DNA from: Syncephalis plumigaleata
Taxonomy: Eukaryota; Zoopagomycota; Zoopagomycetes; Zoopagales; Piptocephalidaceae
Length of the DNA stretch: 64,000 bases
Assembly (NCBI GenBank): GCA_025201365.1
Contig: JAIXMF010000004.1
Location: forward strand, 1,481,696-1,545,695
Reading direction: 5' to 3'
Both the position numbers and the translations under genes were made by a program. Shown here in pieces: positions 14,691-58,084 of the stretch. The first letter of the stretch is position 1. Each line of letters opens with the position of its first letter. The notes under the pieces are model-generated. The model ran no database searches. It saw only the letters and a program-made list of their open reading frames with translations, and was not told the origin of the DNA.

Positions 14691-14699
14691 TTTCTCTTT

Positions 14700-15470: not shown

Positions 15471-15503
15471 TTGATTACGTCAACCTTTTTGCATTCTCAT
15501 CGT

Positions 15504-23673: not shown

Positions 23674-23755
23674 CTGACAATATCATGCTAATCCCCTCGG
23701 TTAACTAACATTTATTCAATTCATCATTATCCTAGAAGTAAACAACACTTACGAC

Positions 23756-24279: not shown

Positions 24280-25310
24280 TTGATTATCGACGCTAACGCC
24301 AATAAACATTCATTTCATGTGCTGTATAAAGGTACACGCAGTATAAAACAGCAATGCATTTTGTGCATGTACGAGCATAATGAATTGTATGAAGCAATAG
24401 GCAGCTTGTCTTTATTGTTACGTGTATAATAGTAGTAGAATGGAATAAATGACTTGTATTACTAATAAAAGTGCCGGAATAGTAGAATGGAATAAGTGTA
24501 TGAAATGATTGATGCTGAATGAAAGAGAAGAGCGAGTATGCTAGGATAGAGCGTTGATCTGGCAAGTAGAAGGTAATAAAGCAATAATGGGATAGGAAGG
24601 GATAGAATAGAAAGAGTAGTAATGCAAATGGTATACAACAATGACATGCCGATATATATCAAATTGATTCATGTTTATTAATATTGCTAGTGGATGCTTG
24701 TCAATGATGGATGGCAATGAGTGTTGGCAATAAGCATTAGCATGATTGATTATCCCGTCATGTTGTCGTTATTGTTGAATATTAGTTGATTGACATTTAG
24801 AATGGGAATTAGTACATATTGTCTGAATATTGTCACTTGTATTAGCAATGAATAGAAATGTCAACTTACCGAATAGAATGGAAATGGTATGTAGCTAGCA
24901 TCATTGACATTTTGTATTAGTATTTGTGCCTGATTCATTTGCTGTTTGTAGATTGCTTCTAAAGCAGAATGAATTATTGATTCAATAAATAGCTAGATGA
25001 TCAAATGAATCAGTTGGTATTTGGTGTTTACGCAATAGAATAATGAATTAATAGATTAGATGAACTGGTATCAATGTATTATTGACCTGTATATTTATGC
25101 ATACTTGTATTGTTTGTATTGCTTTGGTTGGAATGTGTTAGTTTACGTACAGTTTTATTAATGAGGTGTATTGGACACGTAGTGTATATCATATTGGTAT
25201 TAGTGCACGAGTAAAAGCAAAGTGCAGTAGACTACCGCAAACAAAATGAACAAAATGAACAAAATGGAAATGGACAAAGAATAAGCCACCATAGATAAGG
25301 ATAGAGCAAC
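24280..25310. other. Intergenic, AT-rich, no supported gene
   Basis: Simple AT-rich sequence with TTATTG, GAATAG and ATGAAT words; no frame with protein character. It ends at the inner boundary of the right palindrome arm. Confidence 0.4.
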
Positions 25311-25630
25311 TATCTGTACTCGATGGGCATTTTAAGTCGTGTATTCATTAAATAAATGAAATAGATACTTGGAAATGAATTAGTAAATCATTAATGACAA
25401 TTAGTAAAATGTTAACATGTTTATTAGAAAAGAATCAGAATTAAATTAGTATGAAAACATAATTGTTCATGTAGTTCACTATAGTAGGTATGACACTTTT
25501 GTTTGGACTTTATACTACTATATTAAAATAAATGACAACTCAACCATGTAAGCAAACATAGTTGGTAAATAAAGGGGAGTTGCTTAAGTATATGGCATGT
25601 GTAAATACAACAATGTACATGATTAGATAA

Positions 25631-28600
25631 TTATTCGTTTGATTCTTTCGTATCGTTCTGCGATAGCAAGAATGGCGGTGTGAACAAATCATCATCTAGC
25701 ATGTCGTCTAGTGATGATGAATCCTCCGGCTGTTCACGTAAACTTGCTAGTTGAGCAATAGGCATTAGTTCGGAAGGATAGGAGCTATTTGTATGATAAA
25801 TGGATCTTGCACTTACTTTGATAATTGGCGCTAATACCGGCAAGTGCGCTACTGATATTTAATGATCATTTGTTGCTTTGATGTCGAGTATGAATTAGAT
25901 GGTGCTTGGTTTGCTGGTATGTTTGCATTGGTTACATGTGGTCGATGTGGAGTCGCACAGATAGCGTTATGAGATGAGAAGATAATAGTGAAATCATCAC
26001 CTTGAGATAGTTCCAATGTTTGACCAGATGATACTTGTTCTCGCAATTGATTTAAATAGAGCGAGATGTCCTCATCTATTTCTTCGTTGAATTTACCGCT
26101 TAAATGGCCGCTTACATCAAGATAATTTAATGAAGGATCCGGGCGAGGTTGTTGTGATGTTGTCCATGACTCGAGTATTTCTTCTTTTTGTTGTTGTCCA
26201 TTAGGAGACAGAAGAGCTAGTGGAGATTGGTGTCCATCTGCTGAGTCGTGTTGTACCTTGGATGGCGGTGGATGACAGTTGGTTATCTCCTTATTGTTTG
26301 CTTGTTCTTCCTCATATAATGATGGAGCCAATGGTGCTGGTTGTGTCGCCGCTGATTCCGCCGCATCAGCATTGTTGCAGCGGATTGGGAGACTAGCTGC
26401 TTCTTCTCGCTTTTCTTCGCCGACGTTAGAAGGATTCGATGGAGTTGGTTTCGCCTCACCGGTCTTATGACGGTAGACTGGGAGCTTGCCATAGTATTTA
26501 GAAACTTCCATTGTCCATTTAAGGGCTTCCATATCCTTCTTGCTACATTTAGGTTTTACACGATCCTTCGTGCTACAAATAGGTTCTACAGGATCTTTCT
26601 TATGGTGTAATCCCTGCTTGAGTCTCTCTTGCATCTTCTCGTAGTCACTCTTGGTGTCAATGTGACCTGGAGGAATATAGCGATTTGAACGTTTCTTCTT
26701 GCTAGGAGGCAAGGCCTTCAATTCTAATATGGATTGTTAGTGTATATTAAATAAACGTACGGTTGTTACTCACCTTCCTCCTCCTCCTCTCTTAAGGGTG
26801 ATGGCATTAGTCTTTTCGTTGAACGTAATGCAGCAGCGCGTACTTCTTCAAACGATCTCTCTACGCCATTATGATGCAAAAGCTTCACATTGGCCACCAT
26901 AATCTCTGCATTTGGTGCTACTTTTGCTTTACGTTTAGTAAGCGGTTTGGCTGCCGCTTTAACTTCTTTATCGGCTGCATCTTCAGTGTGTATATAATGC
27001 AATGGATCACGCTTAAGCGATGCCGATTGCAATGACGAATAATCTTTTTTCGATCGTGTTGGAGCATCACAACTTGGCGTCTTCAGTGCCTCATCCAAAG
27101 TACTCTGCTGTCAAATTGTGTTAGTCTAAAGTTGGCTGTTAATCATTTAAACATTACTTACCTTATATTTATAAGCCTTGAGCTTTATGAGTTTCTCAGG
27201 CGCATCTGGACACATCTTAAGCGATGTCGATCGCGATGACAAATCATATTCTTTCGATCGTGTTGGAGCATCATGACTTGGTGTCTTCGGTGCTTCATCC
27301 AAAGTACCCTGCTGCCAAATTGTGTTAGTCTAAAGCCGACTATTGGCCATCTAATCATTACTTACCTCATATTTATAAACTTTGGACTTTATGAGTTCCT
27401 TAGGCGCAACTGGACGCAGCTTAAGCGGCTTTCGCCAGCTGTCGACTGCTGCTTCATTCTTTTTGATTCGACCAGCTTTTGTGCCCAAAACATTCCATGA
27501 CGCTTGAGTTTCACCATCGACAGCAGCAGCAGTTGTTGTTGTAGCAATAGAACCAGATGGTGGTATATTCTCTTGATCCACATAGGCTTGGAGTCGACGT
27601 TTGCCGTTTTCGTTCTTAGCATTAGCTGGTTCATGATGAACTGCTGAAGCTGGTCGTTGATTAAGTGAAGTAGTCTGCTTGCTTAGCACGCCTTTACTAA
27701 TATGGCGAACGGCTGGCTGTTGTTCCACCAATGGTGTCTTCGTTATGGCGTTCTTCTCGAACATGTGTGACACGCCCTTGACTGATTTGGATTCGGATGG
27801 TGTAACTTTAGCTGAAAGCATACGTAATTGGAAATGGAAGAACTCTTCCTCAATTCGTGTGAGCTGTTGAGCAAATCGATTAATCCCTAGTTTGTAGCAG
27901 AGCTCGGCCTCACGCCACCTATAAATAGAGCGTGGTTAGCATGCGTTAGTATAACTAGAATGTATCGACAGTTTTACTAGCGCCTACATCTTTTTCTTCT
28001 CTAAATATTCGGCATATTCCTGGTAGGCCGGTACTTGCTTCTGTCCGATGTTGTTTGTCTCTAGAAACTTGTACACAGCAAGAGGATCGCTGACAAGCTC
28101 GGCGTGCAATAGCGAGATACGTACGTAGCGTGGATCATTCGTATAACGACTACAATTACGGAACTTGCGTGTGCATCGTTCAAGCAGTACAGGCAGCATG
28201 CCTGCGTAGCTATCGCTTTCGAGACAACTATGCAGTGTCCACTCCACGTATCGTTGGTAGACCTCCAAGGGATCATCGAGTTTGTCGGCATTGCTGATCT
28301 CTTTTTCAAATCTAGCACGCTGCTTTTTAAGCGCAGCTGCACGTTTCTTCTTCGGTGTGAAAAACAGGTCGATTAGGGCTGCGGCAACTCGATTACTCTT
28401 CAGCGGTGCGGTATTCTCTTTATGTCTTTCAATAGTCTCCTGATCAACTACACGTGGTACAGGTCCACGTTCGCAATTGTCCAGCGTAGTCGGTGCAGGT
28501 ATACGGGTCTTGGTTGAAGTAATGCGAAATCGCTTTAGTTTGGGGCCGTAGACTTCCTCTTCTCCTCGTACAGGGTCGTCGCCAGGCTTGTACTCGGGAG

Positions 28601-28694
28601 CAATGGATATCGCTTGAGAGTTGACATATTTGGGTAGGTTAGAATTGCGCGCGGGAGTGCCATTGGCACCGTAAGAAATATGTAAGTCTGTCAT
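25631..28694 (-). CDS. MAD3: Mad3/BubR1-like spindle checkpoint protein (right copy)
   Basis: Mirror copy of the gene at 17,425-20,488 with identical exons (28,694-27,988; 27,919-27,367; 27,309-27,163; 27,105-26,775; 26,724-25,854; 25,785-25,631). It has the same KEN box, TPR region, tandem exon duplication and GLEBS-like motif. At least the predicted protein is unchanged, so both copies should be functional if both loci are real. About 530 bases upstream of the preferred start are also duplicated, so the promoter is probably shared. Two identical expressed copies would double the dose of an APC/C-Cdc20 inhibitor. Confidence 0.85.
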
Positions 28695-29417
28695 GGTTGC
28701 TACTAAGCACAGGTATAGGTGCAAGAACACAAGGAAGTATGTGAATGCAGGAAGTGGTGAGAGCATAAGTAAGAAAACCAAGAAGAAATGCATACGGGTA
28801 AAAGAAGCAGTGAAAGCCGCGAGTGTTGTTGATAGTCCATTAAATAGCTCCATCTCATCATTCATATCCACAAATAAGCTCATCTAGATCAGCGCACTGG
28901 AGTCTATCAATACCCTTGCGTAAATTACCCTCGTCTCTTTTATCCACAACAGATAATCACTAGCTGGATCGGCTATTCTCTCTACAAGTAAATAGTGTAT
29001 AACTATTTATTCTGCCTCAGTAAGTCCATCTATTGATTGGTGTACTAACTTCCGTATTAGTGTTCGGGTATATCTGCGCATATTGCTTTAACATCTTTCC
29101 CTATATACACATGATGATTAACTAGATGCGACACTCTAATCATAACTAACTAGATAATATGTAGTCACTTATTTTGGCTAGTAAGTTCATTTTATTTATT
29201 ATTAAATTAATATTTGTTGTTACTCAGAAAAATACACGTACGCTGTTTCAATATTTATTTCTCAGTTATGTTTCACCAATATTACTCTATTAGACTGTTA
29301 TAATATACATTATGTTTGTATGACACCATTAGCACATGCACTAAGATCTATACATGATAATATTAAGGAATGGATGAATGGTACAGCATTTATTATTGGA
29401 TTGCATGCAGAATATAT

Positions 29418-30615
29418 TTAGTTATATGGATGCATAGCAGCAGTAATGACGTGTCCATTGTTATTGTTCACAACAAGTTGGTATCGATTACATAGACATT
29501 CCGGTTGATCAGATCGATAGCTCCAACATCTAGGACATTTATGTCGTGCCGATAAATGTAGAATCATTTGACCAGATGCACCATTCACAGTGTCTATTAC
29601 GTTGTCGATTAATAGTCAGTATCATGGCACACTCATACTTCATACTCCATGCTTACTTGGTAATGATATCGTTTCACTAATAAGCACAGTGTCATTTCTC
29701 GTGGTTAATGTCGACTGTGCAGCAATATTAACCGATGCACATAAGAACAGTTCAGGTAGTTGTGATGCTAATGCGTATTGCTTAATAAACTATATACGAG
29801 CAATATCACTATCGCTATTGTTATTATTGTCGTCTTACCGTATTTCTGTAGTAATCGACCTAGTGGAGACATTGCACTGTCTTCTAGTTCTAGTGTCAGG
29901 TCGATTTGCGCGCTTGTCTTGATTCCCCTGTCAGTCAATGAGATTTGTAAATAAATCATTTGGTATACTGCAGATAGCACTTACTTGGCCTGTCGCACCT
30001 TCTCGACTAGCTGGTAGTACTGACTACGAAGGTGTTGTAGCACTGTCCAGTTTTGCTCCAAAGCAGTATTATGCCAACGATCATCCTATTCATTGCCAAT
30101 GCTCGAGTGTTAGACCACACATAGCTCAGTGATTGCAAGTGTTTACCAGAGATATCCATCCCGAGTGGAATACGCTATCAAATGGTGTCGACCAAGTTGG
30201 CGAGAAGAAAAGCTGAATCTCCTCGGCTAAATGACAAGTAATTGGTGCGAGTGTGCGTGTGTACATCTCAATTATCTATGCGGTATTCCTTGCTTAGCTA
30301 CAGTTGCATACCAAGTGTCGATGACTTACGTGATATACGGCAGTCTGTGCTGATCTTCGTGCCAACGATAATTTGTCGTCAGAGTAAACGCGCTCCTTGA
30401 TAGATTCAAAGTAGAACGCCGATAGTTGTGAGTTGGTAAAGCGATTCAGTTCTTGAATAACTACAATAAACAAGGCAAGTATTAGTCCTACCGTTGCGTA
30501 TGCTATTCACACTTCTTATCGACATACCTTTATTGAACGAAAATACTTGCTAAGCATTGCTAATAAGCGTGGCAGAGCAATGTAGTTCATGTAAAGTGTA
30601 TTGGTCTATCAAGTA
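29418..30615 (-). pseudogene. Isoleucyl-tRNA synthetase, mitochondrial type, 5'-truncated (right copy)
   Basis: Mirror of 15,504-16,701, including the in-frame TAG (30,550-30,552) and the C-terminal CPRCW zinc-finger-like end. The same truncation point in both copies shows the fragment was already broken before, or was homogenised after, the arm duplication. Confidence 0.75.
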
Positions 30616-32099
30616 ACGATGAGAATGCAAAAAGGTTGACGTAATCAATATCCATTATTGCATATAAGTAGCAACGAGTGAACAAATAGAATACAAGATA
30701 AACAATGTAATAAACAAGCAGTAACTAGTAGAATGACTGACTTGTCACGAAGGAGCAAGGAATGAACAAGGAAGGGTGCATGAACACGTATGTCAGTTTA
30801 TTCGAAGAAGCAGTGTATGCTTGTAGGTAGATAGAATATGTAGATGGCAGTAAACAAATAAAAATACAAATAAAAGCATGACGTAATGGTGGCATACAAA
30901 CAGATGACGGAAAAGAGTGGTAAAAGTAAAAGGTACATATTACAACGAGAACAGTGAACGCTTAAACATGATAAATGAACAGGACAGTGATAGAAAACAA
31001 AAGACTAGAACGGACAGCAAACAATGCTTATTGTTATAGTAATAATAACGACAAGTGAGCATGTAAATAGGATAGAGCAAGAGGAAGAGAACAAAGAGAC
31101 AGATAAAGTCATAGAGATAGTATGGCAGAATAGCTGCTATTGGGAAGGTGTATGTTAAAGTGAAAGAGGAAGTAAGTGGAATGTGAAGGACACGAAGAAG
31201 ACGCGTATTACTGAGAAAGTAAAAGAAATAACTAGCATATAGTTAAGAGGAAGTAGACGCGTGTTGCTTACTGACAAGTGGAATGTAGTTGACACAAAGA
31301 AGGCACCTACTATTTAGTGACAGGGAAAATACAGTTGGCATGAGGAAGACAGTATGTGAAAGAAGTCAACAACAAGTGGAATGTAGTTAATACTAAGAAG
31401 ACAGCATTGGTAAAGAAGTAAAGAGAAACAGCAATGAAATGGATACTCAGAAGTGGATCAGTACATCATTAATGTCATTAGACACTAGTAACAAACATGT
31501 CAATTAGTATTAGTACTTATTGATTGCTAATAATAGACAAATAAACTAAATATATTTATTAAGCACCTTTGAATGGCTCTACTTGAATGACAATGCACTG
31601 TTTTGTGTATTTGACATGTGTATAGATTAATTACAATAAAGATATTGCTACAATGATGTCAGCATAATGACGTGACATGCCGTAATGTGTTAGTTGACGT
31701 ATAGATTAGCAATAGCAATATATCATTATATACGAACTACGAGAATTTACATATAAAAATGAAGCTATACAAGCAGCTAGTAGGTTAGAACATCTGCCCT
31801 TTACTGCTTTTATCGCGAAGCATATTGGTTACAATCTTACTCACCTTTTTTTAGTTATATAAAAATTACCATTAAAGCTAAGTTCAAAGAGGGTAGTCAG
31901 CGCGTTTGTAATGCTATGGTGGAGTGCACTTTTGCGTTAGTTACTGGCGTCACTGGAAAGCGTGGTAACACGCCTATCAGTACCGCCACCAACGGCGACA
32001 TTATCGTCGTTGGAATTAAGAACAGAGCCAGCAGCGCTGGTTGCGGCTGCAACGTCGGCAATGCTGTCAGCAGCATCAACCAGCGCACTTGGCGAAGAC

Positions 32100-34672: not shown

Positions 34673-34906
34673 TTAATTTGTTTTTTGATGTTTGGATCCC
34701 TCTTGATCTTGTCCATTTTGATCTTGATCTTCATTTAGTGAATGTTTTGTGGATGTACTAGGCTCAGGAGGAGAAACGGCACCTCGTTGGAATTGTGTTG
34801 GAATAAGGTTGTCCGCACGAACACTGAGAATAATCTGAATAAAATTCAGACATGCCGCCATATCCCGATTCCATACACGATAATCAATAGCTACTTGTAA
34901 GTACAT
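34673..34906 (-). pseudogene. Fanzor-like (eukaryotic TnpB) C-terminal fragment
   Basis: A short frame reads YRVWNRDMAACLNFIQIIL, then IPTQFQRGA, then a low-complexity tail rich in Ser, Asp and Gln. The WNRDxxACLN motif is the end of the RuvC nuclease domain in Fanzor/TnpB proteins, where the Asp of NRD is the last catalytic residue; a Leu-rich helix and an IPxxFxR motif follow in Fanzor proteins. The preceding zinc-finger and RuvC parts are missing: upstream the sequence switches abruptly into the dispersed repeat at 34,888. This is a fragment, not a working nuclease. Confidence 0.55.
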
Positions 34907-35146
34907 GGCATGGCAATATCCAACTATACTAGTACACTTGTATCATCTACCTTATAGAATTGATGATGATAGTTATTGCTATCAATGAAGGATCCATTAC
35001 TAATACTGAATTGTTATTATTATCATGCTGTGTTAATTGGCATTTCTATGGTGATAATGGTGTTAACAATTGTGTTAATCTATTTATTAATAAACTGCAA
35101 ATGTTAAAGGATAAATGCGCAAATTGGATGGAAAAACACTGTAGTA
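34888..35146 (+). repeat. Dispersed ~250-bp repeat
   Basis: Second full copy of the element at 20,805-21,063, in the same orientation, ending in GCGCAAATTGGATGGAAAAA then CACTGTA. It directly adjoins the Fanzor-like fragment, suggesting that the repeat is, or carries, the end of the element that mobilised it. Confidence 0.75.
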
Positions 35147-38648: not shown

Positions 38649-41600
38649 CTATTTAGAAAGAACGTGATACCATGGATCAATTTGACGAATCCAATCGTCC
38701 ATCTCATTGCGACTCGTTGCTTGTAACATATAAGCATTATTTTTAGTGTATAAGGCAAATACATGTTGTTTCTATCGAGTAATGTAATTAGTGATAATGC
38801 ATAAATTAGATAGAACAAGATGGATATCGTTCCTATGAACTACTCCTCTACTTACCTGTAACATTTGTTCAAGATCAGACTTGTGATCTACGCGCACCAT
38901 AGTTAAATTAATAATACCCAATTCCTGTGTCTCATCCTGAGCTGTATACATGTACATGTAGGGTCGACGAATGACAAAGAAGCGTTTAGTCCACGTATTG
39001 CCGATATCTGTTTCGGGGAAGAATAAATAGCCCTTCTTGGAGATGGTATCACTAGAGAAAGCAAGTAAATAAAATAGTGATTAGCTGTCTCATTATTACA
39101 TAGTTGTATATAAATTGATTACCTTTTGTTCACTACTGTCACCTTGGGAGTAAGTTTTAGTTCCTCTTTTGGTTCCGATAATGTTGAGCATATAGAACTG
39201 GCTGAGGTCATTGAGGTAAGCGCGCTATCGCTATTCTGTTCCGGTAATGGTACTGGTGGTTCTTCCGTAAATACTACATCCTATATCATATTCAATAAAT
39301 GTTAACACATTATTACTATTGTTATTATTCCTATGAACTTACCTGATCATCTGTAAAGGGGAATTTTTGCCATAATCGAGTAAATTTATCGCATAGTTCG
39401 GTGGCTGAATCACCAAGTCGTGGTGTTGGCTCAGCGGGTGGTACGCCCAATAGATCACGTAGTATCAAGTATTGTCGTGTATCATTCGTGCTTTCGATAC
39501 GACGTATTTGCTCGGCCACTCGTCGATACTCATTGACCATGGTGACACCGCGTGGCTTCCAACCATCTAGGAATTCCTCGCCACGAACATACGTTGATGC
39601 TGTGTTGGCACGCCATAGTTCCGATAAATTCTTCGTAATAGGTGGTGTGAGCACCACTTGGAATAGTTGACTGTATTTATCGTAGATCTTGAGTGAACTA
39701 CCGCCGAGGAAACTACGGAAACCGCTCGATCTAGCAGTTCGTTGCGTTTGCCTATCACCAATCTGTAGGGCGACGTTCGTCTCGAATCGAATTGATTCAG
39801 AGCATCGTTGTGCCTCCACCGTGAATACGAGCGTAAGTAGAACACGATGATTAGCCGGTGTGGCTCTGTTGAGGAATTGCGCATTATGCAACGAGCTATC
39901 CCATGATGCTTCCGCTCGCAATACAACGGTACCGTCAAGATTATAGCTGACCTCCTGACCGGGTAGGACATTCAACTTGACATCCATGGCGGTTATTGGT
40001 GCATCGGTCACATGACCCTTACTATCTTGCAATCGTACGCGACCAAGCACGACACTCGTGACGTGCGTCCACTGGAATTGTCGACCCGATGAATGCGTGA
40101 GTGTAATAGCCACACGTCGCTGTAATCCTTGACGTAGAGCGAATGCTCCCATATCATTGGCATTCTGCGCTACAATAACGGTAGGCGCATACTCGCCATT
40201 CTGATCCGGTTCTAGCAGTTGAATCCAAGCGAGTACATCATGGCGTTCCTCAGTGAGTAACTCCTCATCGGAACGACGCTCCGTTTGATTGCCATTCATC
40301 GTGGGTTTACCGCCCTCGACCGGACGAGTTGCATTGGATGGATCCTCGCCACGACCCCATGCGCTAAGTAGCCATGATTTAACACGACCGAACACCTCGA
40401 TTACGAGGAAACCGCTACGCAATTGCTCTATAGTGGCAGATGTTATAGGAATCGATACACTTTGCGAGTAGCCAAAGTAGACCGGCTCATCGTCGGCGAA
40501 TCCGCTAACCAACTCGGTGGTGTATAGCTTGTCACCCGTGGTATTCGGTTTCACCGCGCCCAACGACGATAATCGATACTGGCAGTGTAGTTGTGAGTAG
40601 TCGCGTTCACTGATACCGGTCAATTGATCGATTTGAATCTCGACGAGTAGTTTAGCACCTAGTTCGAGTTTGTTCGGAATAGCATTTGCATTGCCTGCAT
40701 CGCTGTCGCGCCATGGATTATTCGCTTGTGACGTGGACGACGAGTTACCATTGTTGGGAAGCGTTTGTTTTATGGGAATTACGGCCACATCGAGGATACC
40801 GAGTATACGACCGGTACGACGACATACGAGTGGCACTTGGTGACGTTGCGGCATCATGGCCAATAAATTACGAAGATGAGTACGTGCTCCGCCTACAAAT
40901 GTGAACTGCGGTCCGGGTAACTCGTAGAATGGTTCCTCTAGATTGAGATGCTGCGCCAATCGTGGTCGATCAATATAGTTGTACAGGTTACGCATACGTT
41001 TAACACGTTGTCGTAGTCGGTCCAACGACCACACGTAGGAAGAGGCATGACGTTTGTCGAGCACTAGAACACCGATGCATGGTTTATGGGCATCGGCAAG
41101 TGATTCGTCATCCTCGTCGGCCGTCTGCCCAAACACGTCACTATTCGAACTCTCCCAGAAGGAGCGTGGTCGTGTGTAGGGCCACTCTTCAACGACGCAA
41201 TACTGATAGGTGACATTCTTCTGTAGTTCCTTACTAATAACATTGGCCTCTTTCAACAACACGGCATTCGTAAGAACTGTCTCGGCCATATTGATGGAAC
41301 GACGCTGACGAAGTCGTGCAATCACCTTGTTGATCAAGTAGCGTTCACGATCGGTGTAGACACGCATCGGTGCGGTGGCGAGTTTTTTATCACCTGCCGC
41401 GATTCTACGCATACGATCCTCGTAGGCACGTCGTTGCTGGTTAAGTCGCTCGTTCATCTCTTCTCGTGCCGTGCGCAACTCCTCCTCCATACGTTCACGC
41501 TGCGCTTGCAATTCCTCCTCGTTAACCCGACTAATGGTCAAATCACGTATTTTGGCCTCGTATTCGGCGCGTTGTTCATCGATTCGATTGTCCATCTCAT

Positions 41601-44188
41601 CTCTAACCGCTCGTAGCTGTCCCTCGAATTCGCTTTTACCCATATCGCTACGAATGTCGAGATCGTGCAGGACGTCGGATCCAGCCACCGAGCCTAGACG
41701 TGCCTCGCGACGAGCGTAATTCCAATCGGCAACCTCGGATGTCATGGAGGCAACCTCGGATGTCGGCGAATCGGGTCGACTAATATCGTAGTGTGGCGTG
41801 GTGGGAATGCCCTCTCCATCGGCGACCTCTTCGTTTGGATTCTCGTACTGTATTGTACGTATGAGATCCTTCTTGGAAAGACTACGACGAGCTTCTTCGG
41901 GATTGTTAAATCGGAATATATGGTTACCACCGAGAACAATACGGAATCCGCTGCGCAATCGTTTGGCCTTATCGATTTGCAGACCGTTGACCATTACAAT
42001 GCCACCGTCGCCCGGATGCAACGTCACCTTGCCTTGCTCATTCTCAAAGTGACAATGATTCGCCACGATCTTACTGCCGCTAAGCTTGATTTCCGTGTCG
42101 CAATCGTCCTCCATCCTACCCACACGCGTGATACCGGGACGAATTTGGTACACGAGACATTCGGACATGAGCGGGTCCTCGTTGAGATTGACCAGATGCG
42201 GCATCTTCTTTGGCGAGTACAAGCCGACGTTATTCTTCTCCATCATAATGCCGAGATCCTCGAGCATTTTCTCTCGTTCCTCCTGAATACGCTGCGTCTC
42301 ATGAACCTTTTGCTCCCACGTTTGGTTCAACTCGGACATAATCTTCTCGGATTGATTCAATTGCTCGCGAATATTCGAGGCAGGCGTGCCGTGTTTCATC
42401 GCTTCTTCGGGATCGTAGACCGCCAGCTTACTACGTAGCATTTGCAACTCTTCCTTGAGCTCTCGAATAACCTTGGCATTCGGATCCTCGTTAACCACCG
42501 CCTTGTTCTGAATCTTCTTGGCCGCGTACGCATAACGAAGTGTACTAAGCGTTTCATCGTAGTCGGCCGGTGAAATCGCTGCAATCATGGCGGTACGCGA
42601 GTTACCACCAAGCGAGTCCTTAAGCAACCAGGTCAATACGGAATCACGATACGGGACAAAGTTGTCCTTTTTCCCCTTCTTTCCTCCGGTCTTTCCTTCT
42701 TCCGCAAGAGCAGAAATGACTTTACCGAGCGTCGTCAATGATTTATTAATGTTTGCACCTTCCTTAAGTCGAACACCTGTGGCACCGGTTGAATTGGCAC
42801 GTTCACTACCTGCAAGATCGACCAGACTGAATTATAAAGTAATGCAAGGTTAGTTGCCACTTCTAGCATGACTAACTAACTAGCTAGCTAGCTAGTTACC
42901 CACCTGATACGTGAGACTTTTTCCGTTTCCATATCCGTTTCTTTATCGTGACGCTTTTGCGTTACAATAAGCGTGAATACACCATGAGATCGACTGGATG
43001 TTTCATTCATATTGGTGGCGGCAACAGTACGAGTCTATTCGGCATTAATGACAATAAATAAGATAATGGTTATTATTGTCTATTGTCTATTGTCTGTTAT
43101 TCAGTAGTCACACATACCTTGTTACCCTCGTCCATCAACGAGACAATCTCTTCGTATGAATTGACCACTAGTTTCGAGAGATCCTCGACGTACGGACCAA
43201 GCGATGGATGTTCACGTACACGTAGATTGTTCTTGTTTTTCGGATTCAACAAATCACGCACTCGCTCACAGTAGATTTCCATATAGGAGACCTCCACATT
43301 AATTTGTAGGTCGTCGGATGACAGTCGATTGACACGTTCAAATAGTTCCTCGCACGTCAACGGGATAATACCCTTGTCCTCACCGTATCCCACCTATTCC
43401 GCGTTCAATAGACATCATTTCCACACCAAGTGTGTAAGTGGCATGATACTTGTTCATATTGATATTAAGACTAATTACCATTGAATATGATTTACCAGCA
43501 CCGGTTTGACCATCTAAAATGATTACAATAACACGTATAGTTTAGCTGCATTAGCGATCGTGTCTACCATGTGCAGTAAGTATTTATAGGTTTATCGTTA
43601 CTTACAAGCAAAAATACACGTATTATAACCTTCAAAAGCGTGATCGAGCAGTTCTTTGCCCAAATCATTGTAGACAACCGCTTGACTGGCGTAGTTGGGC
43701 GCCTTTGGATCAAATGACCAGTAAGAGTGATCGTAGGCAAACGATTTGACATCGGGTTTAGATGCTGGATCTGCGGGATTTGACGGTCGGGTAATAATAG
43801 TTTGGTTGCCTTCCATGCGAATAAGACATGTGGCACCACGCGCAATTTCTGTAATGTCATATAGAAAAAACAATTAGCCATTCATGTATCCATTAATACT
43901 AATTATATGACACAGTAGCTTTATTGGAGTAGAATAAAACACCAATGCTACTACTAATGCTACTAATTTATTATGAGCAATGGTAACCATCATATAGTAT
44001 TGTACTACCAACTTGGTTACCATCGCTTATCCATCATTTCGAATAGATAACCAATGGCAATGGTCTAGCCATTTATTCTACTCCATCCATAGCATCGTCT
44101 TATTGTATATCGCGTTGTTTCTACAATGTTACTTACCGCGCGAGTTAAGCGGTCGCACACGCACGACCACCTTAATGTTTCCACTCAT
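38649..44188 (-). CDS. Kinesin-3 motor (Unc104/KIF1 type)
   Basis: Nine exons (44,188-44,137; 43,848-43,606; 43,513-43,479; 43,393-43,118; 43,034-42,904; 42,826-39,343; 39,280-39,123; 39,051-38,856; 38,771-38,649) sum to 4,698 nt, 1,565 residues. Motor domain (about 1-360): [13 protein letters not shown]-loop [11 protein letters not shown], switch [12 protein letters not shown], switch [20 protein letters not shown] domain at about 480-580 ([10 protein letters not shown] ... [19 protein letters not shown]). Coiled coils about 670-760, KIF1B/DUF3694 regions about 780-1,200, and a C-terminal PH domain (about 1,450-1,560; [20 protein letters not shown]). This is the layout of long-range endosome and vesicle transporters that bind phosphoinositides through the PH domain. 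The FHIP gene at 7 kb belongs to the opposing dynein-adaptor system. All junctions keep frame over 4.7 kb with no break. Confidence 0.93.
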
Positions 44189-46722: not shown

Positions 46723-48877
46723 ATGCCTAAACGTCATAAGAATACAGAAGGCCGACAGGCTAAACGAGCAAAGAAGAGTCAGAAAGAAGTGGAATTAGAA
46801 GCACTAGTATTTGGTGCTGATATTGGTGACGATGATACGTTGAATTATATGGGTCAGGAATCAGTACAATATGACAACGACAATGATAGCGACGATACAC
46901 CTGCTCTAGATCAGGAATTGTCGGGTGACGAAGCAGCAGAATTGTCCTTCTCCGTAGATACTGGGGATCAAGCACCTTCTATGGTAAGCAATTAGTCTAT
47001 TTTACTATGATATCCTAATAACATGATATGATTACAGGAATTTACTATTGATACAGGATTTATGGAAGAGGCAGATGAAGAAAGCGAAAATGAAGAGGAA
47101 GCAACATCTGACATTGATGGTAACTACAACTAGCACTTGTTAATAATGAATACAATAATAATCAATCTACTCAATATCAATAGATACAGCAACTAATACT
47201 AAAAAGGCTGCATGGGAGGATGAAGATGATGAAAAGTTAACGGTATCTCTTATGGAACGTAATCGTCTACGTAAATTGCGTACTACAGAGACAGAAACTG
47301 AAGTAAAGGGTGATGAATATCAACGACGTCTACGTCGACAGTAAGTTGCTCTATTCCACTATACAACTATTCCTATACTTACATTGATACATCATTGTAG
47401 ATTTGAACAATCAAAGCCTAAACCTAAATGGGCATTAACAGCATCAGACGTAAGGATCAATCATCTACCATGTCCGATATCGATGATGATGACGAGAATA
47501 ACGAGGAATCTAATGGACAAGGCATTTCAAGTTATTAACACAATCTGCCAGTCTACTAAGTAAAGCAAGTGTACACTTGCCATCCGGTAAACTTGATGTG
47601 GAACGTGTTAAAGACGTGAGTCAACCATCAAAGAACAAGGTGAGTAGCATGATCATGGATTATATCATACTGTCATAGTAACTAATTCACTACTATATAA
47701 CTATTATTAGACTAGAGTGGTAGCAGTCGATTTCCATCCTAATGGACAAGTAATGTTAGTGCTGGATCTGATAAAACCCTACGCTTATTCCAGGTATTTG
47801 AAATGATTACATAATTGACTAAAACATACCTACTTAATAGTCCTATATAGATTGATGGTAAACGAAATGAGAAGATTCAATCTGTACTATTCAAGGATTT
47901 ACGTATTGGTTGTGCAAAGTTTGATCATGCAGGACGTCATATCATTGTTACAGGTAGACGTACCTACTTTTACATTTATGATGTGGAAAGTGGTCAAATA
48001 TCTCGGATACCGCAACTACGCCCACGTACATCTAATGTGAAATTACTTGCTGATCGATTCTCAATCTCACCCAATGACAAGTAAGTAATACACTCATATA
48101 TATATATAATATATATACTAGTTAATATTGTGTATTCATGATCATAGATGGATGGCATTTATAGCCAAGGGTGGTGTCATGATATCGTTTCACTGGATAC
48201 TAGGCGATGGATCGGTGATATCCGTGTTAATAAGGGTGTTGCCGATATTGCCTGGTCGATGGATGGTCATCATTTATATGTGTTAAGCACTGAATCTGAA
48301 GTATATCGCTGGAATATTGAAACACTTGCATGTGTTCATCGATTCCATGATCATGGTGGATTCGCACCAACATGTCTAGCAGTATCCACCGGTGATCGAT
48401 ACTTGGCTATAGGGTAATGTATTGAATAACAACTATATAGATATAGATATACATTACTCATTATACTATTAGATCCAATTCTGGTATGGTTAATCTATAC
48501 GATCAATCTTCATTGGAGACTAGCTCGCCTAGACCCGTAAAGACATTCGACAATTTGATCACACCCATACATGGTTTGCAATTCTCATCAGATGCTCAAT
48601 TATTATGCATGTATAGTACGAGTAAAAAGGATCAATTACGTATGGTGAGTAGTAGTAGTAGTATTGCTCTATTGATATCATGTGTATTCATTCATGTTGT
48701 CTATCATTATAGATTCATACTGCTTCACGTACTGTATTCAGTAACTGGCCAACTACTGGTACACCATTGAGTCATGTACAGGCAGTTGGATTCTCGCCTC
48801 ATACAGGCTATCTAACCATTGGTAATGATAAAGGACGTACGCTACTGTATCGTATGCGACACTATGGACAAGCTTGA
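46723..48877 (+). CDS. UTP18: UTP18-like U3 snoRNP WD40 protein (frame broken in this sequence)
   Basis: Exons from 46,723 encode a Lys/Arg-rich start, an acidic region, then WD40 blades: RVVAVDFHPNGQVML, SDKTLRLF, IDGKRNEKIQSVLFKDL, GRRTYFYIYDVESGQISRI, SISPNDKWMAF, VADIAWSMDGHHLYV, VQAVGFSPHTGYLTIGNDKG, ending RMRHYGQA at 48,877. This is the UTP18 pattern: a subunit of the UTP-B part of the SSU processome needed for 18S rRNA maturation in the nucleolus. At least four single-base frame changes are needed to follow the homology (about 47,450, 47,527, 47,757 and 48,183). As UTP18 is normally essential and single-copy, either these are consensus errors or this is a dead copy. Its stop is 18 bases from the stop of the convergent eEFSec gene. 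Confidence 0.75.
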
Positions 48878-48895
48878 ATAAACTAATATTATTTA

Positions 48896-51329
48896 CTATT
48901 GGATGATACGTTTATGTGTATCGTAGATGAGTTTCTTGAAGGGTAGTCGAATGATAGTCGATTCATTGTCATTGCGTACACTCATCTTGTTATTACGTGT
49001 AGTCTTGGATGAAAGAAGTGCTGCAGGTAGTTTATCCATTGTCTTGACTCTAAATTTACCACTAGTACCAAAGGTAGATTCAATTTTACCTTGACAATTC
49101 AACTCTAATATCATGTTAATGTACATATGAATAATCAGCTAGAATGAAGGTATATTGTATTCAGATTACCTGATGATCCTATGGTAACAGTTAGACCGAT
49201 AAACTTGTCGAGTGTACCCTCCTTTCTAACGAGTCCACGACCGATGAGTGTATAATCATCGACAATCTAGGGTAATAGTCAATATTACTACTAATGGAAT
49301 GAATACTGTGATGTCATTTATGGTTGCTCACCCTATCAATCATTGCCGTACGTTGACGTTCTTTATAGATATTCAATTGTGGTAGAAACTAGTCTTATAA
49401 TGAGCATCTGTGATAATATGCTGTAAATGACCATAGATTGCCATACGACATTGTTTCGTATCTATCATTTGCATTAAGGATAAATGTAATACTACAACTA
49501 TAGAGTGAGTAACTATATGAAAGGATACGGATATCAAGATCTAGACGTGATAGAATGGATAATGCACGCGGTGCACATCGAATTGGCTTATCGAACTCTA
49601 GTAGAGCCCAGTATTTACTCGTATTCACAGATGACATTGTTGCCTCGTTGTTATCTTCTTCTTCTTGTTCTAGAGTAGGCAAGAACTGGTACCATTCATG
49701 TAAATCGAATGTATATCTAGTACAATAGATTAGCTAGATATAATTGCATCAATATCATTCTATACTTACTATTACCGTCATTGTTATTACGTGAAAAGAA
49801 TACAACATTTGCGGTGACTGTCTCGTAGCCTACAGTAACTGGAATGGCATGCAATGGCATTAGATGATCTAATTATTGACTCGTATTAACTGCTTCTTAC
49901 CATGAAATTTACTTCTTGATTGCAGCACCTTTATAGAATGGTATTCGTTGTGCATCTACAATAGCGGCATAGGTCAACTGCACTACATTCGGTGTTGCTA
50001 CTAGTCCTCGTTCCAATATCTCGGATCAAGTTGCTTTACACATATACCAATACGATCACCCTATATATATATTATATGTATATATGTACATATATCTATG
50101 TGATTCATCAATAATTACCTTACACGCCCTCTCTATCGACTGTCTAAATCGTTGTATACTCTTCACCTTTCTTCATGGCCTATAGCAATTTCAATATTCT
50201 AAATAGTAATCGTATCAAATGGTTGTCTACTCGATATTAGCCTGCTTACATCGCCCACATTCACTGCACCGCCAAGTATCGTGCCTGTAAGGATGGTGCC
50301 CTTGCCTTTCAGCGCAAAGCAATGATCCACGGCATATAGAAATGGCTCAGAAGGATCGAACGGTTTCGGTAAGGGAATACAGCGCGTAATGCATGCACCA
50401 ATTGATCAATACCATTCGATGCAGCATCGTCATTCTGAGCGGATACCGGTATCATGGGGACATGCTCGAATCCTAATGGTAAGATGGCTTTGGCTATCGC
50501 TTGCTTTATCTATTACATACAATCAATATCAATAACCATAAACCATTTATGATATCTGCAATAAATGACTACCTTGGCTATTTTGGTAGATCGGGTTGCC
50601 TCCTGTAGTAAATCTATCTTGTTCAATGCAATCACCAGTGGACATTTGATAATCTGTGCCAATACTAGACACTATATAGGTATGTAATAGTCGCAAATGT
50701 TATTTATTAATGAGGAAAAGACAGCGTATACTCCTCCATCAATATGGTTGCTTACCTCGGCTGTTTGCGTTTGAATTCCTTTGGTCGCATCGATGACTAG
50801 CAATGTAACATCGATAATCTGAGCACCTACATAGAAATTACTAAATGAATAGATATAGATATATATATGACATCAGTCATTCTACATATTTACCACCGAT
50901 AACTGTACGAACAAGTGAGGCATGTCCCGGACAATCGACCAGTGTTACCAATATCTGTTCCGTGTCAATGCCATGTTCTAGCATATTACAGCAGTCGGAC
51001 AATAGTCGTTTCGCTTATTCGTCAAACTAGTATATACAAATAGAATGAGCTGCGCTATTACCTTGCCAATGTGTAGGTACCTGCGTGAAATAGCCGGAGA
51101 AACCGAGGTCAAGGGTGATGCCGCGGGTTTGACTTTGTGGATTCTTGTCGAATGCCGCTGTCGACGCAATACTACTAAGTTGCTTGGCTAGTGTAGTAGT
51201 AGGAGGGTATTTAGTAGACTATTGCACAACTATTGCTTATCAGAGAGTATAACGTACCAAGTGTCGTCTTCCCACTATCTACATGGCCAAGTATGCCAAT
51301 ATAACGTTAAATGACGAAAGTGACGCCAT
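48896..51329 (-). CDS. EEFSEC: Selenocysteine-specific elongation factor eEFSec (frame broken in this sequence)
   Basis: Reading leftward from ATG at 51,329: GTPase G1 GILGHVDSGKTTL, AKQLSSIASTAAFDKNPQSQ with TRGITLDLGFS, G3 VDCPGHASLVRTVIGGAQII, G4 ALNKIDLL, domain II VDHCFALKGKGTILTGTILG, VKSIQRF ... GDRIGICVKQLDP, KFHVTVGYETVTANVVFFS, ALLEFDKPIRCAPRALSI, SRLDLDIHTKQCRMAIYGH, IVDDYTLIGRGLVRKEGTLD, and the C-terminal DTHKRIIQ before the stop at 48,896. AAFDKxPQSxxRGITLDLGF and RLDxDIHT separate eEFSec from eIF2-gamma and EF-Tu. It delivers Sec-tRNA to UGA codons with SECIS-binding protein. At least six single-base frame changes and one in-frame TAA (about 51,013) interrupt the frame, so this may be decaying or miscalled. 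A U12 intron lies at 49,462-49,528. Confidence 0.8.
49462..49528 (-). other. U12-type GT-AG intron in the eEFSec gene
   Basis: On the minus strand the donor is GTATCCTTT (U12 consensus), the branch-like ATCCTTAAT lies 11-12 nt before the acceptor, and the intron ends GATAG. Splicing completes a His codon in SRLDLDIHTKQCRM, exactly as the conserved SRLDADIHT of eEFSec requires. Confidence 0.78.
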
Positions 51330-51616: not shown

Positions 51617-52024
51617 TTATGCCGCTTGATTTTGTTGTTCTTCGCGTAGTTTTGTGGCTAGACGCATACGTCGCTTATAACTAATAACAAAATAAACGAA
51701 ATAACATCCGACGCATACGTATATCATTCGAGAAGGATTATCGTTAATGTTCACTGCTTACCAGTTACGCGCTATTTCTCAATCTACTTACTCGTCGTAT
51801 TGACACTTTTCATAGGCGTGTCGTTCCTCTTCACAACGCCATGGCAGGAAACAGTTCTCGTAGCGACACTTGTTCAGGGGAATAAGTTTATGTGCACAGT
51901 AATCGCGCCATTCGAGTGGTACTCGATTCTTTTTCATTTCTTCCTGAGTTGCAATCATACGTGGTTGAGCATCGTCCTCCACTGTCTTACTGACGGGGAT
52001 GCTGTGTGAATCGGTGGCGGTCAT
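51617..52024 (-). CDS. NDUFB7: NDUFB7-like complex I subunit (twin CX9C)
   Basis: Two exons (52,024-51,792 and 51,680-51,617) give 98 residues. The CHCH fold is explicit: CAHKLIPLNKC and CEEERHAYEKC are two CX9C motifs, separated by RYENCFLPWR, and followed by QYDDYKRRM. This matches the B18/NDUFB7 accessory subunit of NADH dehydrogenase, imported into the intermembrane space by the Mia40 pathway without a cleavable presequence. The junction GA|T restores the DDY motif. Frame is intact. It lies head-to-head with the ceramidase gene. A functional complex I is thereby indicated. Confidence 0.85.
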
Positions 52025-52923: not shown

Positions 52924-55643
52924 ATGTTTGGCTCTTGTTCGCGGAGTAGCCTAGCCTGGCTGGCCCTGTCCATCATTTCTGCTGCGACAGCCATTCATGC
53001 CAGTTATAATGTAGGTTCTTTTAAGTGCTATATTGCTATCATTGTTATTCACCATTAATTCTAATGGTCTAGATTGGAGCGGGTATTGCAGACATTACGG
53101 GGTAAGTGAAAAAGTTTAGCCTGTAGCTACCATGTGGATTGCATACTAACACCAGATTTGTTTTACCATTTAATTAATCAACACCAAATAGGCCTATTGG
53201 TAAGTATGAGTTATGGTTTGGCATCTCACGTATAAATACTTACACACCTAACTGTGTTCTATGGACATGACATTTAGCCGAGGTCAATTTCATGGGCTAC
53301 GCCAATATTAAACAACGCGGCACGGGATTGCGCCAGCGTATTTACTCGAGGGCCTTTATCGTGCACGACACACAGTCGAACAAGCGTGTCGTACACATTA
53401 CAACGGACACCGCAATGATGTCACAATTCGTGCGACAACGTGTCATTCAACGGGTAGTGGAAAAATTGGTGCTGATCTCTATACTCGTGAAAACATCATG
53501 ATTACCGGGACGCATAGTCATTCGGGTCCCGCCGGTTTCCTTGGCTACCTACTCTACGATTTGACAGCCCTCGGTTGGATCGAGCAATCGGCCGAGGCCA
53601 TCGTCACGGGTATCGTGCTCTCCATCGAACGAGCTCATGAACGCTTGCAGCCTGGCAGTGTTTCCGTTCATGTTGGCGAATTACTCGATGCCGGCGTTAA
53701 TCGTTCGCCATCGTCCTACGAGTTGAATCCAGCGGAGGAACGTGCTCGCTACCAGCACAACACCGACAAGGACATGACGCTATTACGCTTTAACGATGCC
53801 TCCGGAAAAGGTATCGGTCAGGTGAACTGGTTTGCCACCCATGGCACCAGTATGAATAATACGAACACCATGGTTACAGGTGATAACAAAGGGTACGTAT
53901 ATTTACATGCAGGCATATGCTATTACTAGGGATGCAGACTAGCTGTTATCGATAAATAATAACGATGTTAATGATGTCAATGTACATACAGATAGCTGCT
54001 GTCAAGTTTGAACAAGCTATGAATCCGCCGGAAAGTCCAACTGGCATGCCAAATGGCTTCGTGGCTGCCTTCAGTCAAACCAATATGGGTGATGTTTCCC
54101 CGAACACTGAAGGTGCAAAATGTCTCGATACCGGTCTCCCTGTGACTATAAGCATAGTACTTGTAATGGTAAAAATGAAATGTGCATTGCTCGGTAAGTG
54201 AGAGTGGAAATACGTGGCAACATTCTAATAGTAGGACTAATAACACGAATACACGCTAATTGTCGAATGTCATCAGTGGTCCTGGATGGCGAGAGGGTGA
54301 TTTTGCCAGTAATGCCATTATTGGTGATCGTCAATATGAGAAAGCGCGCGAACTATTTGACAGTTCACCACGGAAGGTGTTATCGGGACCGGTTGACTTC
54401 CAGCACATGTATCTCGACATGTCCAAGGCGAACTTCACCTACGCCAATGGCACTGCTGGTCATACCTGTCCACCCGCCATGGGCTATTCAATGGCTGCTG
54501 GCACTACTGATGGTAAGCAAGAGTGACGGCATTAGTCTATTAAAGAATGCCACAGCACAATCTAATGATATACATGTGCATATACATACTATTTTACGGA
54601 AAACAACAGGTCCTGGTCAATTCGATTTCTATCAAGGGCAGAACACACCTAATCCATTATGGAATACGGTTGGTGCTATTGTGACCAAAGCACCATCCAA
54701 GGAACAAGCCGCCTGCCACTACCCGAAACCCATCCTACTCAACACCGGTGAAACGCATTTTCCCTACGAATGGCAGCCTACTATCGTTGAGTTGCAAGTG
54801 TTCCGAGTTGGTCAGTGTTCATTGTGGGCGTGCCAGCCGAATTCACCACCATGTCCGGTCGTCGTATGCGTGAAGCGGTGAAAAAGGCTGCCATCGAACA
54901 AGGTATCGCGGGTGAAGACACGATTGTCATTGTATCCGGTCCCTCCAACACTTATGCCAGCTACACCACCACACCCGAGGAGTATGTCGGCCAGCGTTAC
55001 GAGGCTGGCTCCACTATTTTCGGACCGGGATCATTGCCCGCCTACATTCAGAATGCTGTCGCTCTAGTCGGTAGCATGGCTAAGGGTACACGATTGGAGT
55101 CGGCACCGGCACCACCTGACTTTTCCAGTAAATTTATTTCATTGCAAACCGGTGTCGTACTAGATTCACATCCCACCAACAAACCATTCGGCACAGTTAG
55201 TGATGACGTACAGCCCAGTTATCGTCGAGGCAACACTGTAAGCGTCACATTCTGGACCGGTCATCCTCGTAACAATCTGCTATTGGAGGAGTCATACATC
55301 TCGGTGGAACGACAGGATCCGGCCACCAAAGAGTGGAAACGTGTTCGCGATGATGGCTACTGGAGCACACGCTACAAGTGGGTTAAAGTAAACGGATTTG
55401 GCGAGAACAAGGCAGTTATCGAATGGGATATTGAGCCGAATACCAAATGTAAGTAGCGAGACAACGCTAATTGATACGCGCATGTCTATCTATCTATCTA
55501 TATACAATTAATAACGTTCATTTATTTGTCTATCTCGAATAGTGGGCACCTATCGTATTCAACACTTTGGTCATCATCGTACTCTTTTCCAGAAGATTGT
55601 TGCACATAACGGAACTTCCAGTACATTCCAAGTGATTGCCTAA
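52924..55643 (+). CDS. Neutral ceramidase (frame broken in this sequence)
   Basis: Eight exons: 52,924-53,010; 53,073-53,101; 53,192-53,199; 53,278-53,896; 53,992-54,193; 54,277-54,512; 54,610-55,448; 55,543-55,643. Signal peptide (residues ~8-25, LAWLALSIISAATA), then the family signature IGAGIADITGPIAEVNFMGY, zinc-site region ITGTHSHSGPAGFLGYLLYD, NWFATHGTSMNNTNTMVTGD with the conserved NxxSxxNN-like loop, FVAAFSQTNMGDVSPNT, and a C-terminal immunoglobulin-like domain. The enzyme hydrolyses ceramide to sphingosine and fatty acid, outside the cell or in the lumen. Three single-base deletions are apparent (about 53,463 in an A run; 54,140; 54,815). With three bases added the exons sum to a multiple of three, about 707 residues, the expected length. 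Confidence 0.85.
53192..53199 (+). other. 8-nt micro-exon of the ceramidase gene
   Basis: GCCTATTG lies between an acceptor (AAATAG) and a donor (GTAAGT). Joined to GG before and CC after it encodes the invariant Gly-Pro-Ile-Ala of ADITGPIAEVNF, so its inclusion is required by both frame and conservation. Confidence 0.75.
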
Positions 55644-55886: not shown

Positions 55887-57518
55887 CTACAATTCACCAT
55901 ATTCTTGTAGTATGTGCACTTCGTTGTCACGAGAACTACCTATCGTACCAAGCATTTCTTCACCTCTTAACTGCCAACTATTTGGTGCTTCCAATTTGCG
56001 TATTAACATTTTTGTATTGATGTCTACAAGCAAATGACTTCCTCTACGACCACGCTCATGTACATTAAAAACATAAAGATCACCAATAAGGTTTCTGATG
56101 TGTGCTGTACCCGGCAATTGCAATAATAGATCATCATTGTAGGATAAGTCTGTCAATACTTTTGGCTGTTGGTAATCAATCATTGAAAACATGTATCCAG
56201 CTCTTAATAGTGGAATAGGTATATGTCGGTCAGTTATAGTGTCGCAATTACGTGGAATATGGCTTTGACCACTGGATGCTACACTATGCATTATGTATAG
56301 TTCACAACCACGAGGGCCACGCAATTCAATTAGCATATATGAATCGTATGAATTATACGGAATTAGCCACGTATCCCTCATCTTCTCAGGTAGTTGAAAC
56401 CAGCCATTTCGCAATTGTTCAACAGGATTATTGCTCGAGAACTGGTATAGTGCCCATTCAATACGATCCGTATCATCATCTTTGACTAGTCTTGCCGTGT
56501 ATACTATTGCTGTATTGTTAGTTGTTTTATAAAAATGTGCCACGCCCCATGTATCACTAATGCTTCCTGGACACATGATACTATTATCTATATCGAATAC
56601 CATTGCATTCACTAAATCCATTAATGATTAGCATTAGTTATATTACATCATTATAAATTACTACACTTACAAATTCGCGATTCATCGAATACGTTCCTAT
56701 TTTATGCTCTAGAAATACCCATTTCCCTTGATTTCCTCACTCGATATGGTGTTGGAACATCGAATGTAGTGAAAACACCGCCATGTTTGCGAGAAAGTAT
56801 TGCTACATTATAGTGGTATTACTCTTAATTGTCTAGGAGATGCGGCTATATAATGGTCACCCAGGACATAGCTACGCTGAGCTTCATTACCAGTATCCAG
56901 TGAAATAATGTTTGGCGATGTGGATAGCGTACTGTTATATACAATATTGTTGCTTGACCTCAGATTTGAATGTGGCGAATATTGTAAAGTATAACTATGC
57001 CTAGCGTTTTATCTGAACGGTCATACTGTGTGATAAACATACACGATCACTATTACAATTGCGATAACATACTCCATCCTTGTTACTTTCATATCGATAT
57101 GTGTAATATTGTACCGTCCAAATCGCCAATTATTCTCGGTGCTCACTCGTCGACGATATGTGTTGTACCAGTCCACGTTCTCTAGTAGATCGGCTCGTTT
57201 ATCCGATGTACATGGATGGTTGACATCCGTGCGTATACACCATAATACGAAATCCATTTCTCTATCGTAATAGGCTCCCGATAAGAAATCCCTATGGTAT
57301 AGTGCTTGCCATAATAATCGGTCATTTCGAATACTGTTTCTTAACGAGCGACAACATGCTGATAAACGCACTAATTCGATATGACCAAGTAGACTACGGA
57401 AGACACGCTGGTCATGAGATGGAAGAGTATTCAGACAGTTTAGTAATCTACAAGATGAGTTGGAATTACTCGATACTTCAGTAGTAGTAGTAGTAATAAT
57501 AGTAATAACAGTAGACAT
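55887..57518 (-). CDS. F-box-family gene, lineage-specific (copy B, partly preserved)
   Basis: Exon 1 (57,518 leftward to about 57,070) has a Thr/Ser-rich start then an F-box-like helix set, LLGHIELVRLSACCRSLRNS followed by LLWQALYHRDF, which fits an F-box (SCF ubiquitin-ligase adaptor) of reduced similarity. A middle block (about 56,960-56,700) reads NIISLDTGNEAQRSYVLGDH in one frame and AILSRKHGGVFTTFDVPTPY in another. The last frame (56,621-55,887) is open for 244 codons: FDIDNSIMCPGSISDTWGVA, YTARLVKDDDTDRIEWALYQ, LTDLSYNDDLLLQLPGTAHI. Repeated beta-strand-like segments suggest a propeller. I cannot name the family; splice sites between blocks are uncertain and one frame change is needed, so it may be decaying. 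A more damaged paralogue is at 2,897-4,440. Confidence 0.55.
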
Positions 57519-57604
57519 AGTGGAATGGAATAAGAAAGGCGATATGGGTAGAGAAATACGATGACGTTATTTTAATCAAGAATACACAAATAAATTATAC
57601 GCAA

Positions 57605-57913
57605 GTGTGGATAATAATGAAGCATGGTGTTCAAGTCTTTCTAATCGACGAGATATCCTACTGTCACGTGTCATTCCTTCTTAAGATGAGTACAATCTAT
57701 AACAATATACTAACTCATTATTCTATTAGATGCACATATCAGAATTGTAAAGATGACATGAATGGTAAAGGATTCGAGTATCGTGTATGGAATCGGGATA
57801 TGACAGCATGTCTGAATGTTATTCAGATTATTCTCAGTCTTTGCAATGGAAACGGTGTTCCAACACAATTACATCAAAGTGTCATTACTTCTAAACGTGC
57901 AAGAAAAGGATGA
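57605..57913 (+). pseudogene. Fanzor-like (eukaryotic TnpB) C-terminal remnant, best preserved
   Basis: Open for 102 codons: QVFLIDEISYCHVSFLLKM, then IRCTYQNCKDD, then YRVWNRDMTACLNVIQIIL, then GVPTQLHQ. In TnpB/Fanzor proteins a DExxTS-C--C segment, a C-x4-C half of a zinc finger and then an NRDxxAxxN motif close the RuvC nuclease domain; the order and spacing agree here. The first Cys pair is degraded, and the rest of the protein (about 400-500 residues) is missing upstream, where the F-box-family gene begins on the other strand. It is a relic. Dispersed-repeat end sequence follows at 58,128. Confidence 0.58.
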
Positions 57914-58084
57914 CAAGGACAACAAGAAACAACTTATCCGTGATGGTTATTGCTCCTACATCTAAATACGTAGGCTTTATTATCACTAATTGCAATATAT
58001 GATATCGCAATCATTAACATCTCCCTCAACTGCTAAGGTCATGACAACTACTCAATAATAATAGTAATGCGATAATGGTGTAAA

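Follow-up and report, generated by a model that had tools for sequence, protein, structure and literature searches.

A gene for the selenocysteine elongation factor eEFSec, with apparent frame breaks, in a probably fungal genome

Selenocysteine (Sec) is the 21st amino acid, and eEFSec is the factor that brings it to the ribosome. The window analysed here, a single stretch of 64,000 nucleotides of DNA, carries a gene that a preliminary description had identified as eEFSec in a fungal genome, belonging either to another Sec-using fungus or to one losing the trait. The coding sequence is broken at six points in the assembly, and the locus raises the question of whether it is a working gene in a Sec-decoding fungus or one in decay. 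The reading that is considered likely is that this is a true, functional eEFSec, that the host is an early-diverging fungus still decoding Sec and that the breaks are small deletions in the assembly.

The gene was modelled on the minus strand with its ATG at 51329 and its stop codon at 48896, exactly the range of the preliminary description. The spliced length is 1649 nt, stop included. Introns are 49-84 nt long and all 12 are GT-AG, with a TAG acceptor in 11 and CAG in one. An alternative donor for intron 9, 10 nt earlier, was dropped; the adopted donor preserves the frame. Among the frames inspected, no single one was open from start to stop, and as assembled the six frame breaks leave the gene without an open translatable frame. 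Changes of frame lie near 51300, 50380, 50169, 50022, 49911 and 49388 and divide the coding sequence into seven in-frame pieces of 9, 184, 53, 30, 37, 115 and 120 residues. No stop codon was found within any of the seven pieces, and no splice site was lost among the 12 introns. Small introns were rejected as the cause of the breaks: the pieces abut one another (gaps of −1 to 2 nt) and align to human eEFSec without interruption. The features of the gene and of its neighbours are collected in Table 1.

Table 1. Coordinates of the eEFSec gene, its parts and the neighbouring genes used as controls (positions are those of the window)
Feature	Position	Strand	Description
Kinesin-3	38679..43849	−	Motor, KIF1-like domains, PH domain; first exon outside the model
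Mitochondrial ribosomal protein L1	45154..46464	−	Nine exons, 774 nt; without frame break
UTP18 (U3 snoRNP)	46723..48877	+	Convergent with eEFSec; nine exons, the frame broken four times
eEFSec gene, ATG to stop	48896..51329	−	13 exons, 12 GT-AG introns, six frame breaks
eEFSec exons 12 and 13	48896..49266	−	Bulk of domain IV (eEFSec_4th), C-terminus FKKLIYDTHKRIIQ, stop
eEFSec exons 9-11 and introns	49332..49838	−	Bulk of domain III (euk_SelB_III), with frame break 6 at ~49388
eEFSec exons 7 and 8 and intron between	49901..50198	−	Pocket Arg (GDRIGICV); frame breaks 3 (~50169), 4 (~50022) and 5 (~49911)
eEFSec exon 6	50250..50509	−	Sec-pocket Asp-His (VDHCF), with frame break 2 at ~50378-50381
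eEFSec exons 2-5 and introns between	50573..51187	−	GTPase-domain RGITLDLGFS, DCPGHASL and NKIDLL; without frame break
eEFSec exon 1 and intron 1	51188..51329	−	G1 loop GHVDSGKT, immediately preceded by frame break 1 (~51300-51303)
NDUFB7 (complex I)	51617..52024	−	Upstream of eEFSec; two exons, 297 nt; without frame break
Neutral ceramidase	53295..55643	+	Five exons (N-terminal end outside the model); three frame breaks

A read-through protein was prepared by joining the exons in frame with X at the breaks and was used as the query. Pfam identified GTP_EFTU (PF00009) with an E value of 1.9e-34, euk_SelB_III (PF21208) with an E value of 3.5e-30 over profile positions 1-120 of 120, and eEFSec_4th (PF21131, the C-terminal RIFT domain IV) with an E value of 3.1e-25 over positions 1-119 of 119. 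The last two are eukaryote-specific eEFSec domains, and both are present. The domains were also detected in raw frames with stops replaced by X and nothing joined: a single frame matched euk_SelB_III (E value 3.6e-08), two frames matched eEFSec_4th (E values 1.7e-07 and 6.2e-05, the latter below the curated cut-off) and raw frames matched GTP_EFTU. The GTPase motifs GHVDSGKT, RGIT, DCPGH and NKID were all found.

Among the best 60 of 252 matches in the PDB, the top places were taken by human eEFSec chains (E value 4.2e-139, 468 bits, query residues 7-554), followed by archaeal SelB at 185 bits and then EF-Tu at no more than 114 bits. BLASTP against the human chain gave 250 identical columns out of 594 (42%) over the full length. 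In human eEFSec, F53, D229, H230 and R285 are described as Sec-pocket residues, mutation of T48, D92 or H96 as impairing UGA read-through, and E372-K582 as the hinge salt bridge (PMC5059743). Eight of these nine residues are kept in the window protein (T48, F53, D92, H96, D229, H230, R285 and K582, human numbering), including all seven of the pocket and GTPase set (F53, D229, H230, R285, T48, D92 and H96). The ninth position, E372, was aligned to Phe in a poorly aligned stretch, and another alignment puts a Glu nearby.

A tree of 22 rows was calculated, with two eEFSec rows (window and human, the latter the sole reference eEFSec), 10 SelB-like rows and 10 outgroup rows; GTPBP1 and eukaryotic EF1A were left out, and the tool flagged a meeting of long branches. 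Nine of the SelB-like rows came from metagenome-assembled genomes (MAGs) labelled archaeal and one from a MAG labelled chlamydial, and the outgroup comprised two Bartonella EF-Tu rows and eight archaeal rows, which by motif we take to be probably aIF2-gamma. The window protein was grouped with human eEFSec with support of 100/99, and the eEFSec pair and the ten SelB-like rows were placed on a common side, again with 100/99, apart from the outgroup rows. With the domain evidence added to the tree, membership of the eEFSec family is beyond doubt: the locus encodes eEFSec, orthologous to the human protein, and a chance match is excluded. The preliminary description had reported eEFSec motifs from the G1 loop to the C-terminus and had proposed a phylogeny of the protein; domains, residues and tree placement bear out its identification.

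Of the SelB-like genes, L037 was on a contig labelled Chlamydiae SM23_39 and L003 on one labelled Bathyarchaeota Bin_245. The tree places L037 within the Lokiarchaeota and L003 with the SelB-like rows of archaea; the position of the former suggests that its contig, at least, was mis-binned. A search with a two-row alignment gave 19 loci, 25-38% identical in their best segments. No relative of the single eEFSec read-through protein was found in viral contigs.

Five genes near eEFSec were modelled as controls, and every intron used in the six models is GT-AG. UTP18, the product of which is essential in yeast, matched the human protein (E value 3.3e-73) and yeast Utp18 (E value 1.8e-66), and the ceramidase gene matched human neutral ceramidase (E value 5.5e-158). 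The automatic calling of frame changes used a codon model, for which six intact ORFs from the window served as the training set, at penalties of 8, 12 and 16; kinesin-3 was tested with its own ORF excluded from training. At penalties of 8 and 12, five changes were called in eEFSec, four in UTP18 and three in ceramidase, of which 11 of 12 were net −1. At a penalty of 16 there were 11 calls, 10 of them net −1, with two of the three ceramidase changes retained. Break 1 of eEFSec was spotted by eye and was missed by the automatic test. Two of the four UTP18 changes fall in the WD-repeat part. No change was called in mitochondrial L1 (774 nt), NDUFB7 (297 nt) or the 4179 nt of kinesin-3 coding sequence examined (43849-39334), where no frame break was seen; the kinesin-3 zero is biased, because that gene was noticed through its long ORF. 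Small losses of bases thus occur at several places in the window and are not confined to eEFSec, and their absence from kinesin-3, mitochondrial L1 and NDUFB7 indicates that the error rate is non-uniform.

None of the breaks lies in a long homopolymer, A/T runs of at least 7 are not depleted and homopolymer shortening was not seen, so one of the usual marks of sequencing error is lacking. The stretches 2850-4850 and 55890-57920 are related, at ~84% identity, the second holding an F-box-like ORF. In the part of their alignment that was counted, 25 gaps fell in the first stretch and five in the second, and 28 of these 30 were of 1-2 nt; the first stretch is either a decaying copy or poor sequence. 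A preference of the deletions between these stretches for CG sites was considered and set aside: six of 25 touch a CG, where 7.5% is the expectation at single positions, and such small numbers carry little weight.

If the six breaks were real, eEFSec would be a young pseudogene in a lineage whose Sec decoding is being lost or was lost very recently. Such decay would fit the break density, which is the highest among the six genes tested (six in 1649 nt), and the absence of breaks from three other genes of the window (kinesin-3, NDUFB7 and mitochondrial L1). Against it, UTP18 and ceramidase are broken in the same manner, with four and three breaks, the eEFSec pieces are free of nonsense codons with all splice sites kept, and eight of nine named functional residues are conserved. 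In a simple decay model, the probability of finding neither a nonsense codon nor a splice-site hit was 0.13, 0.04 and 0.002 at 5, 8 and 15 substitutions per indel, respectively. A young pseudogene is accordingly quite unlikely. Real breaks could also be bridged in several genes by ribosomal frameshifting or RNA editing. The uniformity of the automatic changes (11 of 12 net −1, in genes on both strands) would suit a process of this kind, but the break sites, inspected by eye, share no evident common or slippery motif, and kinesin-3, mitochondrial L1 and NDUFB7 require no such bridging; this account is hardly credible. Because the eEFSec breaks are mirrored in UTP18 and ceramidase, while its splice sites are intact and its pieces free of stops, assembly deletions are favoured over loss of the trait. 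The six breaks are most likely small assembly deletions and not lesions in the living genome, real decay of eEFSec being less likely, and the gene is probably working. The preliminary description allowed two outcomes, a further Sec user among the fungi or a lineage in which the trait is being lost; the second is weakened, since the frame breaks are not special to eEFSec, and is the less likely of the two.

The nature of the host was assessed from the other genes of the window. Its content is eukaryotic, including a kinesin-3 (with KIF1-like and PH domains), a RAI16-like protein, BUB1/Mad3 and ARID. A Zap1-type zinc finger scored 34.2 bits against a cut-off of 27.2, and a DPBB protein was found whose sequence, judged by eye, suggests secretion. 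An ORF at 23705-24268 matched a ricin-B type lectin (27.1 bits, under the cut-off of 29), and one at 12396-12908 gave a DPBB/expansin-like match of 40.3 bits; the N-termini of both resemble secretion signals by eye.

Three proteins were scored against PDB chains, for which the organisms behind the codes are those we take them to be. NDUFB7 scored 98 bits with 7zm7 (presumably Chaetomium), 97 with the best plant chain, 74 with 6gcs (presumably yeast, a fungal chain), 58 with the best chains taken to be from insects and 47 with the best human chain. These scores speak against an animal host but do not favour a fungus over a plant. Mitochondrial L1 scored 104 bits with 6ywe (presumably Neurospora) and 45 with the best human chain, with bacterial chains reaching 133 and a chloroplast chain 126. 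UTP18 scored 250 bits with the human chain, 228 with the yeast chain and 221 with 5oql.

A working eEFSec in a non-fungal host, for example an ichthyosporean, an amoebozoan or another protist with small introns, would be consistent with the window in that none of its genes is proven to belong to a fungus-only family, that the kinesin-3, BUB1 and UTP18 matches are common to animals and that UTP18 is nearer by score to human than to yeast. The Zap1-type zinc finger, the DPBB protein and the very short introns point the other way, each as a weak hint, as do the two mitochondrial proteins, which are nearer, again weakly, to a chain taken to be fungal than to animal ones. A host outside the fungi is unlikely, and from gene content and a few scores the host is probably an early-diverging fungus. 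The fungal genome assumed in the preliminary description is supported as probable by this gene content and some of the scores, though the UTP18, plant NDUFB7 and bacterial and chloroplast L1 scores cut against it.

The remainder of the Sec machinery was sought within the window. ARAGORN found no tRNA in the 64 kb, and Rfam, searched up to an E value of 5, gave no match in the window to tRNA-Sec or to a SECIS family; its seven matches were all under the gathering scores of their families and none was a Sec RNA. Six-frame Pfam scans covered approximately 1-5, 9.8-14.5, 20.7-25.4, 34.5-39.4 and 42.7-64 kb (the last of these on one strand only in places), and elsewhere long ORFs alone were scanned. 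No selenoprotein family was among the Pfam hits of the scanned frames, stops being read as X, in the part of the window so covered. No other Sec gene was seen beside eEFSec in the window, to which the search was limited.

The window also contains repeats. A perfect inverted repeat of 6422 nt has arms at 14393-20814 and 25305-31726 that are 100% identical and 4490 nt apart, each with a BUB1/Mad3-like ORF. Identical arms in an assembly dotted with small deletions point either to a fold-back or graph artefact or to a real palindrome of very recent origin. A repeat of 63 nt occurs in four copies, at 64, 21000, 32622 and 35081; relative to the reference copy, the other three show 60, 68 and 90% identity, and around 20806-21062 and 34887-35143 it lies within a longer direct repeat.

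From its domains and pocket, the GTPase would bind GTP and Sec-tRNA(Sec), the latter in the predicted pocket that domains 1 and 2 form between them. Delivery of Sec-tRNA(Sec) to UGA codons of SECIS-bearing mRNAs would also involve the additional domain IV, the placement of Sec at UGA presumably being guided by the SECIS element together with SBP2.

Sec machinery genes are attributed to nine fungal species in Chytridiomycota, Zoopagomycota and Mucoromycota in the text of PMC11378755, so a fungus with eEFSec would, on that count, be a rare case but not the first of its kind. Seven of the nine are assigned to Harpellales in PMC10386755, and Sec machinery and SelenoH are described with RNA evidence for Zancudomyces culisetae in PMC12611240. 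Six of the nine are named in PMC7988114 (2021), among them Bifiguratus, Gonapodya, Smittium and Furculomyces, but the same paper states that no Sec was present in the fungal proteomes it examined and disputes the 2019 claim of fungal Sec; PMC8559351 (2021) states that fungi lack Sec, citing a paper of 2015. In both, the letter U was sought in annotated proteins. No further Sec-using fungus was met in the titles, abstract openings and part of the matches surveyed. That the host is a lineage outside the nine counted species, intron-rich, early-diverging and with Sec decoding kept, is a proposition evenly balanced between acceptance and rejection. If it does lie outside them, it would provide an independent point for charting how Sec was lost repeatedly among fungi. 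The dating of these losses gains from every additional fungus in which eEFSec is intact, and each such fungus gives a place in which to seek fungal selenoproteins and SECIS elements. The locus is also a warning that errors in an assembly can conceal Sec genes or make them seem defunct.

Three known systems were compared with the window protein. Archaeal SelB, including the SelB-like proteins of Asgard-archaeal MAGs, shares the GTPase core and the common side of the 100/99 branch; it differs in an identity of 29-37% in the best segments of Loki- and Sigynarchaeal loci and in a PDB score far weaker than that to eEFSec (185 versus 468 bits). Human eEFSec (PDB 5IZK, 5IZL, 5IZM and 7ZJW) has the same four-domain order, GTPase motifs and Sec-pocket residues, the same domain IV and the same C-terminal FK..DTHKR segment, at 42% identity, whereas the window protein has shorter linkers in domain I, in domain III and before the C-terminus, and its gene has apparent frame breaks. 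With the early-branching fungi that have Sec machinery (Mariotti et al., 2019, as described in papers citing it), the point in common is the presence of eEFSec in what is probably an early-diverging fungus.
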